A DNA stretch of 64,000 nucleotides from a bacterium (lineage in GTDB: Bacteria > Vulcanimicrobiota > Vulcanimicrobiia > Vulcanimicrobiales > Vulcanimicrobiaceae). The notes under the pieces were generated by a model. The model was not told where the DNA came from, ran no database searches, and saw nothing but the letters and a program-made list of their open reading frames with translations. Positions 29,792 to 31,413 of this stretch are shown here, in pieces (the first letter of the stretch is position 1; each line of letters begins with the position of its first letter). The DNA is taken from NCBI GenBank assembly GCA_021832345.1, contig JAKBKY010000006.1:1-64000 (forward strand). Direction: 5' to 3'. The position numbers and the translations under genes are program-made.

Positions 29792-29953
29792 CAGGTCGCG
29801 GGGAAAGGCTGGTGCGGCTATCGCGCCGTGGTTTTGAGGCGGTTTCGAGGAGCGAGGAGCGCAGAATGACCGCGTCATTTCAGCAACGGGCGACGACGAA
29901 AGCGACCCAAAGCGGGGTGCGAGAGCTGTGCGGGCCTTCCCCCGCAACCTGTT
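29790..29953. repeat. 164-bp inverted-repeat element, copy 3
   Basis: AACAGGTCGCGGGGAAAGGC (29790-29809) pairs with GCCTTCCCCCGCAACCTGTT (29934-29953), 18 of 20 positions. The interior has a second pairing, GGTTTTGAGGCGGTTTCG with CGAAAGCGACCCAAA, and a central AATGAC/GTCATT hairpin. Copy 2 shares the internal blocks GAGGCG and AAGCGACCC and the GAGC/CAACG flanks of the central hairpin. The element starts inside the TAA stop of the upstream gene and ends 76 bases before the ECF sigma gene, so that gene's promoter must lie within it or just after it. Confidence 0.78.
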
Positions 29954-29998
29954 CAGGGCGCCTTCTTTAAGGAGTTCGGGCGACGCATGTGAAACCAA

Positions 29999-30015
29999 CC
30001 TCCGACGAGCGGAGG
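29999..30015 (+). promoter_or_regulatory. Leader hairpin before the ECF sigma gene
   Basis: CCTCCG (29999-30004) and CGGAGG (30010-30015) form a 6-bp GC-rich stem with loop ACGAG. It sits two bases before the AAGGAG ribosome site of the sigma factor gene and hides an alternative GGAGG. It could modulate initiation, but this is a proposal. The preceding TGAAACC (29990-29996) resembles some ECF -35 boxes, without a convincing -10. Confidence 0.35.
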
Positions 30016-30029
30016 TCAAGGAGCGTCGT

Positions 30030-30686
30030 ATGAGCGCGCTCGCCCCACTGCTCCTGAGGGAGTATACCGTGCCAGAAGCGGCCCGGCCGGCGAAGAGTTC
30101 GGCAGGCGCAGCGCCAAGCGTCGAAGGCTTCGACCGGATCGTCGACGATTACCAGCGCCGTCTCTACGGCTTCGCGCTCCGAATGACGGGCAATCGCGAA
30201 GATGCCGAAGAGATCGTGCAAGATGCCTTCGTGCGCGCCTATCGAGCTCTCGGCAAGATGGCCCTCGCCCAGCGGGCTGAACTGCGCCTTCAGCCGTGGC
30301 TCTACACGATCACGCTCAACGTTACACGCAACCGCCTGCGCAGCAAACGCCCCACAAGCGTTGCGCTGGATGCGCTTGCCGACCCCGATGCGTTATTACG
30401 CGGCTCTCTCGAAGAACCCTTACGCCCGGAGACGATCGTCGAACATAATAGCGATGTCGCCTTGGTGGAACGTGCGCTCTTAGCCCTGCCGATGCATCTG
30501 CGCGCGGCGGCCACTCTGCGCTTCATCGAAGGTCGCAGCCACCCGGAGATTGCCGAAATCCTGCATCAGCCGATCGGCACGGTCAAGTCACACGTACACC
30601 GTGCCGTGCGCATCCTACGCCGCATTCTGGGTCCGCAGGTCGGCCGAATCGTTTGCGAAGGGGAACATGCCAATGCGTTGTTGTGA
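30030..30686 (+). CDS. ECF-type RNA polymerase sigma factor
   Basis: The start at ATG 30030 has AAGGAG 6 bases upstream; the longer in-frame reading would run into the repeat element. The 218-residue product has sigma region 2 (RIVDDYQRRLYGFALRMTG, NREDAEEIVQDAFVRAYRAL, LQPWLYTITLNVTRNRLRS) and region 4 (VERALLALPMHLRAAATLRF, HPEIAEILHQPIGTVKSHVH). There is no region 1.1 or 3, so it is an extracytoplasmic-function-type alternative sigma factor. Its last 20 bases overlap the next gene, a zinc-finger anti-sigma fused to a DNA methyltransferase. The signal it answers is therefore plausibly DNA or protein alkylation. Confidence 0.93.
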   Translation: MSALAPLLLREYTVPEAARPAKSSAGAAPSVEGFDRIVDDYQRRLYGFALRMTGNREDAEEIVQDAFVRAYRALGKMALAQRAELRLQPWLYTITLNVTRNRLRSKRPTSVALDALADPDALLRGSLEEPLRPETIVEHNSDVALVERALLALPMHLRAAATLRFIEGRSHPEIAEILHQPIGTVKSHVHRAVRILRRILGPQVGRIVCEGEHANALL

Positions 30687-31413
30687 GATTGAGGTACTCT
30701 GGGACGAGATTCGGGGTGACTGCACGGCCTCACTCAAGCAGGCGGTCGTGGCGCATCTGGAAGCCTGCCCACCCTGCCAAGAACTCTACGAGCAATACGA
30801 AGGCGTCGCCTACCGACTCTCCAACCTCCCCAAACCAGAGCCCTCCTGCAACCTATCCGCGCGCGTCCTGCAGCACATCGCGCACCTGCGCAACAAGTTT
30901 CGCTCCACGCCGGTGACCTTGGCACACGCACCGACTCCGATCGGTCGCGTCTACGTCGGCTTACGGGAGGACCGCATCGTCTACTTGGGGATCGACACCG
31001 GCCAGTCGCTCGAACGCGTGCGCGAGCACGTCGAAGCTCGCCTGCGCCGACCCGTGATCGTGGGTGACGCCCCAGCCTGGCTTCACGACACGCTGGACGC
31101 CTACTTCGCGACCTGGCAGATCGACGACCAGCGAGTGGACTTAAGCGATCTGACGCCCTTCGAACAAGCCGCCCTGCGTGCCACGGCAACGATCCCGCCG
31201 GGCGAAGTTCGCTCCTACGGATGGGTTGCCACAACCATCGGCCGACCGAAGGCGGCTCGCGCCGTAGGCCGTGTGATGGCGCGCAATCCGCTGCCCCTCC
31301 TCTTTCCGTGTCACCGCGTGGTCGACTCAACCGGTGATCTCCACGACTACGGGTACGGGCTCGATCTCAAAGCCCGCCTGCTGCAGATGGAAGGCTACCG
31401 CCCGCCTGGGTAA
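30667..31413 (+). CDS. Fusion of anti-sigma zinc finger with O6-alkylguanine-DNA methyltransferase
   Basis: ATG 30667 follows AAGGGGA within the end of the sigma gene. Residues 1-45 carry the zinc-binding anti-sigma pattern: Cys5, then His30-Cys34-Cys37 in AHLEACPPCQEL (C-x24-HxxxCxxC). Residues about 88-248 form a complete MGMT/Ogt domain. It has IPPGEVRSYGWVATTIG, the Arg finger in KAARAVGRV (Arg198), Asn207, and the acceptor Cys215 in FPCHRVVDSTG, followed by LLQMEG. All residues needed for alkyl transfer are present. There is no membrane helix, so this is a soluble sigma-binding protein. Ada links repair to transcription by another fold; this arrangement would join an MGMT domain to ECF sigma control. 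I know of no characterised example. Confidence 0.88.
   Translation: MPMRCCEIEVLWDEIRGDCTASLKQAVVAHLEACPPCQELYEQYEGVAYRLSNLPKPEPSCNLSARVLQHIAHLRNKFRSTPVTLAHAPTPIGRVYVGLREDRIVYLGIDTGQSLERVREHVEARLRRPVIVGDAPAWLHDTLDAYFATWQIDDQRVDLSDLTPFEQAALRATATIPPGEVRSYGWVATTIGRPKAARAVGRVMARNPLPLLFPCHRVVDSTGDLHDYGYGLDLKARLLQMEGYRPPG

Follow-up and report, generated by a model that had tools for sequence, protein, structure and literature searches.

A conserved ECF sigma factor and an anti-sigma/O6-alkylguanine transferase fusion: a candidate switch for thiol-reactive stress

We describe a gene pair in which an ECF sigma factor is encoded next to a protein joining a predicted zinc-type anti-sigma domain to an O6-alkylguanine transferase. 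The pair lies in the window, by which we mean the whole stretch of 64,000 nucleotides analysed, and is kept throughout the order. From its sequence, we consider it somewhat better than an even bet (about 0.55) that the locus is a two-gene, self-regulated, cytoplasmic switch for thiol-reactive stress, whether oxidising or alkylating, in which the anti-sigma factor carries the cell's alkyltransferase. The sigma factor would, we infer, transcribe the operon that encodes it and, order-wide, trxA, trxB, and the gene for an HtrA-like protease.

Results

Layout of the operon and domains of the fusion protein

The features of the locus are listed in Table 1. In Pfam, the open reading frame from 30030 to 30686 matches sigma-70 region 2 (E 1.9e-14) and region 4 (E 7.8e-12). 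For the downstream gene, an in-frame ATG further upstream, at 30667, would give a fusion of 248 residues. The 17 aligned homologues, without exception, begin at the ATG equivalent to 30673 (MRC...). Hence, the protein probably has 246 residues and its gene overlaps the sigma gene by 14 bp. Note that only 12 nt separate the -10 element from the sigma ATG, so the operon mRNA is likely leaderless. Just 5' of the operon promoter, positions 29800-29960 of the window have a near-identical copy elsewhere in the genome (contig C11, about 297 kb; L054 near 1500-1700). This stretch, translated as RRGFEAVSRSEERRMTASFQQRATTKATQSGVRE, has the look of an interspersed repeat, as its copying suggests.

Table 1. 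Coordinates of predicted features of the sigma/fusion operon in the window.
Feature	Position	Strand	Basis or remark
-35 element GTGAAACC of predicted ECF promoter of operon	29989..29996	+	motif conservation ahead of sigma gene
-10 element GGTC of same predicted promoter	30014..30017	+	12 nt ahead of sigma ATG
ECF sigma factor, regions 2 and 4	30030..30686	+	Pfam
Alternative sigma start, GTG	30069	+	conserved GGAG a few bases ahead
Anti-sigma domain/O6-alkylguanine transferase fusion, 246 residues	30673..31413	+	start from aligned homologues
Zinc-type anti-sigma domain, residues 1-76	30673..30900	+	Pfam, alignment, model
Zinc ligands C3, H28, C32, C35	30679-30681, 30754-30756, 30766-30768, 30775-30777	+	predicted zinc site
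Helix 4 of anti-sigma domain, residues 60-76		+	predicted
N-terminal ribonuclease-like domain of alkyltransferase, residues 80-158	30910..31146	+	AlphaFold model, fold match
Catalytic DNA-binding domain: Y182, R196, N205, acceptor C213 (31309-31311), H214, E240	31156..31395	+	Pfam, alignment

The N-terminal part of the fusion reads C3-x24-H28-x3-C32-x2-C35. This is the Hx3Cx2C signature, with an upstream Cys/His ligand, of class I (ASDI/ZAS) anti-sigma factors. The corresponding ligands of RsrA are Cys11, His37, Cys41, and Cys44 (PMC3961337). The zf-HC2 family is matched at E 2.9e-5 (24.5 bits, cut-off 22.2), and the four ligands are unvarying across 52 distinct fusion proteins. An NCBIfam anti-sigma profile finds 16 of 18 family members with scores below its cut-off, the window protein's included. 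When a profile of the domain was compared with the PDB, the best matches were RsiW (E 0.11) and RslA (E 0.66), both weak. Note that, in RsiW, a zinc site of this type can be purely structural (PMC7406223). Class I factors fold as a three-helix bundle followed by a linker and a fourth helix; the AlphaFold model places helices at residues 3-15, 21-31, 33-43, and 60-76, at low confidence (pLDDT about 57). No membrane helix was found in the fusion, where the 19-residue hydropathy maximum is 0.63. At fusion residues 48-51 (window 30814-30825), the window protein has Arg at residue 48 and Asn at residue 51. Cys48, missing here, is present in 49 of the 52 relatives, and Cys51 too in most of the aligned set.

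The remainder of the protein is an alkyltransferase. PF01035, the 6-O-methylguanine methyltransferase DNA-binding domain, is matched at E 1e-28 in the reading frame ending at 31413. Compared with solved structures, the AlphaFold model matches alkyltransferases along ~170 residues (best E 2.4e-12), with a fold match to M. tuberculosis OGT. The match takes in the alkyltransferase N-terminal domain, missed by Pfam, and both domains are modelled with confidence. All of Y182, N205, C213, H214, and E240 occur in 52 of 52 distinct fusions; R196 occurs in 51. The fold, PCHRV acceptor site, Tyr, Arg finger, Asn hinge, and Glu are those of an O6-alkylguanine transferase. Neither an Ada zinc domain nor an AraC-type helix-turn-helix was found in the window protein by Pfam.

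A preliminary description of this DNA had proposed a sigma factor with regions 2 and 4, a C-x24-HxxxCxxC zinc pattern of anti-sigma type, a complete O6-alkylguanine-DNA methyltransferase with Arg finger, Asn hinge, and PCHRV site, and a cytoplasmic fusion free of membrane helices. Our results agree on each point. The overlap of the two genes also stands, with its extent and the protein's length, given there as 20 bp and 248 residues, revised by the homologue starts.

In the window genome, we found no alkyltransferase with an acceptor Cys other than the fusion. In several near-complete relatives, it is the sole match to the alkyltransferase family. Hence, the fusion has probably kept its function in DNA repair. 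A second protein of the family, in the window genome (contig C7, L002:1456-1962), has PAHR rather than PCHR, the acceptor Cys being replaced by Ala. It can be likened to alkyltransferase-like proteins, but has an N-terminal domain.

The sigma factor and fusion are conserved as a pair

We searched 149 genomes of the phylum for the fusion, counting by hand from the resulting table. The full-length protein is encoded in 93 of 103 genomes of the order, including every genome at least 90% complete. These are 89 of the 99 genomes in the window's family, and all four in the sister family of the same order. Five more genomes of the order have fragments and five have none, the latter all less than 90% complete. 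No other family of the phylum, among the 149 genomes, has a fusion. Named public records of its relatives are mostly Candidatus Eremiobacterota. In a plasmid collection, none of the matches listed covered the zinc domain plus the enzyme.

An ECF sigma gene lies directly upstream of the fusion in 68 of 68 loci, the two genes being at most 5 bases apart and in some loci overlapping slightly. Class I anti-sigma factors are likewise encoded with an ECF sigma factor. With 93 genomes encoding the fusion in full, and a sigma gene adjoining it in each of the 68 loci, the association is not due to chance. In the preliminary description, homologues with the zinc finger lacking a sigma partner were to count against its reading; no such homologue was seen in the 68 loci. 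A PHP-like gene is downstream in 63 of 67 loci, and this synteny points to vertical inheritance. In other families, the sigma factor had no counterpart at E 1e-30 among 24 genomes, a set that included no positive control genome. In another sister family, f3, alkyltransferases are stand-alone or AraC-linked, with no ECF gene seen alongside. A further family of the phylum has an alkyltransferase in one reading frame with an apparent AlkA-type glycosylase (L295, G007).

The conserved pairing bears on the role of the zinc domain. Conceivably, this domain could serve the repair enzyme by binding DNA or protein, rather than being an anti-sigma domain, with the sigma gene a mere neighbour. The modest profile scores are in keeping with such a role, zf-HC2 passing its cut-off narrowly here and being matched in 7 of 18 family members. 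However, the invariable upstream sigma gene, the matches of 16 members to the anti-sigma profile, sub-threshold as they are, and the autoregulatory promoter shared by both genes make it very improbable.

A shared promoter motif predicts a regulon of thiol and protein-quality genes

The sequence G[AC]AACY-N15-18-GGTY recurs ahead of the sigma gene and three others. For the operon, counted with the -10 element as [GT]GTY, the motif is present in 45 of 51 distinct upstream regions. Dinucleotide shuffles gave an expectation of 0.17, and the reversed motif occurs in none of these upstreams. The motif also precedes 12 of 12 htrA orthologues (0.07 expected), trxA in 15 of 20 upstreams (0.08 expected), and trxB in 22 of 32 (0.11 expected). 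Two neighbouring control genes have it in none of 65 distinct upstreams. In family f3, where no fusion was found, nor the sigma factor in those genomes searched, trxB lacked the motif in each of the 12 genomes read. The window genome has about five ECF sigma genes, and the motif marks the promoter of just one, the gene linked to the fusion.

The trxB gene of the window genome lies just outside the window (contig 67575-68516) and has the motif 11 nt ahead of its ATG. A quinone-oxidoreductase-like gene also carries a site. No htrA orthologue was found in the window genome at E 1e-50, so this target rests on relatives. The HtrA-like protease has no signal peptide. In most trxB and htrA cases (L208-L231, L149-L161), the -10 element stops 11-16 nt short of the start codon; the trxA leader is longer. 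Hence, most mRNAs of the predicted regulon may be leaderless. Genes for DUF5069 proteins, in two genera (L170, G000; L175, G077), have the motif 34-42 nt upstream and are possible further members.

Ahead of the operon and htrA, some genomes have GAAACC and others GCAACC. That the same gene can show either form argues for a single sigma factor serving both. Alternatively, a second sigma factor, with an overlapping promoter preference, may be involved. Allowing GCAAC, in addition to GAAAC, raised the trxA count from 3 of 22 to 15 of 20. Because the GCAAC form came from trxB upstreams, htrA and the operon are better tests of the motif than trxA. As a genome-wide regulon finder, the strict motif GTGAAACC-N-GKTY gave little enrichment over the reversed pattern in the window genome. 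Hence, we compared orthologous upstream regions instead.

The predicted regulon looks like the SigR/RsrA thiol-stress regulon, where thioredoxin genes and the sigma operon are under one motif, rather than a DNA-repair regulon. It contains no repair gene but the fusion itself. Might the locus then be a plain disulfide-stress switch, like RsrA/SigR, with the alkyltransferase a co-expressed passenger that takes no part in signalling? The regulon content, the C-H-C-C zinc site, and a match, albeit weak, to the RsrA profile (18.3 bits, cut-off 62.5) are as such a switch predicts. Yet co-expression needs no fusion, and the fusion is kept order-wide. Furthermore, alkyltransferases are tied to ECF sigma factors a second time, as described below. 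We therefore judge a passenger role unlikely.

A second arrangement links ECF sigma factors and alkyltransferases

In relatives from both families, another ECF sigma gene overlaps the gene for an alkyltransferase with a C-terminal Ada zinc domain (L075-L109, e.g. L099:1462-2253 and L101:1459-2277). The protein consists of a short, two-helix-like N-terminus, the alkyltransferase, and the Ada zinc domain, whose four Cys are invariant. By eye, in an alignment, the N-terminal APxxFTxKVFxxIGL looks like helix 4 of RsiW. The arrangement is full length in 14 genomes; in one, the sigma gene has an in-frame stop. In three genomes, it is beside a gene for a PF09859 oxygenase, a protein whose described substrate is damaged DNA. 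Similar loci occur in Actinomycetota (Streptomyces, Nonomuraea, and Rubrobacter; records L323, L325, and L327); in Tsukamurella, alkyltransferase genes flank a sigma gene on both sides, with a 2OG oxygenase and AlkB coming next. In a tree, each arrangement has its alkyltransferases in a clade of its own, and both clades are supported. The alkyltransferase-linked sigma factors group against four others, in a tree with long branches and a thinly sampled outgroup. With this second arrangement, the link between ECF sigma factors and alkylation no longer looks like a lone accident.

Such a link invites the reading that DNA alkylation itself is the signal. Once Cys213 has taken up the alkyl group of an O6-alkylguanine, the fusion would be altered or destroyed and the sigma factor freed, giving a sigma-factor version of the Ada response. 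The catalytic residues are retained in the 52 distinct proteins, and alkylated alkyltransferases unfold and are then degraded (PMC4605297), which would supply a route from Cys213 alkylation to a signal. The Ada zinc domain of the separate ECF pair, the oxygenase beside it, and its occurrence in Actinomycetota fit too. However, the predicted regulon comprises thiol and protein-quality genes, and the fusion has no Ada zinc domain. With this balance, alkylation as the signal is doubtful.

Discussion

How might a switch for thiol-reactive stress work? From knowledge of the family, the anti-sigma domain would hold the sigma factor at rest. Oxidants, or alkylating electrophiles, would attack the zinc-bound cysteines, so that zinc is lost and the sigma factor freed. 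Because the predicted regulon is of the SigR/RsrA class, attack on the zinc thiolates by oxidation or general electrophiles is at least as likely a release signal as alkylation, the one proposed in the preliminary description. The freed sigma factor would raise thiol-reducing capacity and levels of the protease and alkyltransferase, whose own domain would repair DNA. This domain is also a possible second input; alkylation of the acceptor Cys would destabilise the fusion and so remove the anti-sigma factor. The consumed repair protein would thereby trigger its own replacement. More tentatively, the sigma factor could read DNA alkylation directly, with each O6-alkylguanine repaired inactivating one anti-sigma molecule. 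Repair events would then govern sigma activity and renew the enzyme supply, in step with the thioredoxin and protease defences.

The closest known systems are SigR/RsrA of Streptomyces and SigH/RshA of Mycobacterium and Corynebacterium. These share an ECF sigma factor, a soluble C-H-C-C zinc anti-sigma factor and, here as predictions, autoregulation, thioredoxin and protease genes in the regulon, and a similar class of promoter. Unlike them, the fusion bears a full alkyltransferase, falls short of the RsrA profile, and is associated with G[AC]AACY-GGTY, not GGAAYR-GTT. For SigH of M. tuberculosis, the sequence recognised is GGAAYR-N17-GTT (PMC4803200). In Corynebacterium, thioredoxin genes, among them trxB, and an alkyltransferase gene belong to the SigH network, which is triggered when thiols are depleted through oxidation or alkylation (PMC3489674).

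Known adaptive responses to alkylation rely on a transcription factor, Ada in E. coli or Cada2 in Caulobacter. The fusion resembles these proteins in being an alkyltransferase that probably also regulates its own synthesis. In contrast, the window protein lacks the AraC-type DNA-binding domain and Ada zinc domain, and its output would be sigma release. ECF sigma factors adjoining alkyltransferase genes, as here, are already listed in a review as ECF122, with 6-O-methylguanine methyltransferase neighbours, uncharacterised and with no mechanism (PMC8999054). ECF122 is described as having no anti-sigma factor, and this description sets it apart from the locus here, whose enzyme carries a zinc anti-sigma domain. 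The second arrangement may belong to ECF122. Full-text literature searches, whose coverage misses many journals, returned no description of an anti-sigma/alkyltransferase fusion. The preliminary statement that no described system of this kind was known needs tempering as regards the gene neighbourhood.

We conclude that, throughout an order of soil bacteria, a predicted sigma inhibitor and a suicide DNA-repair enzyme are retained as one polypeptide. The predicted regulon ties repair of DNA alkylation to thiol and protein defence, all of which appear wired into one switch. The locus offers a way to test whether using up a repair enzyme can serve as a signal; if alkylation is read directly, the suicide enzyme would double as a suicide inhibitor. 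It also hints at what an uncharacterised class of ECF-alkyltransferase loci, found in Actinomycetota too, may do.
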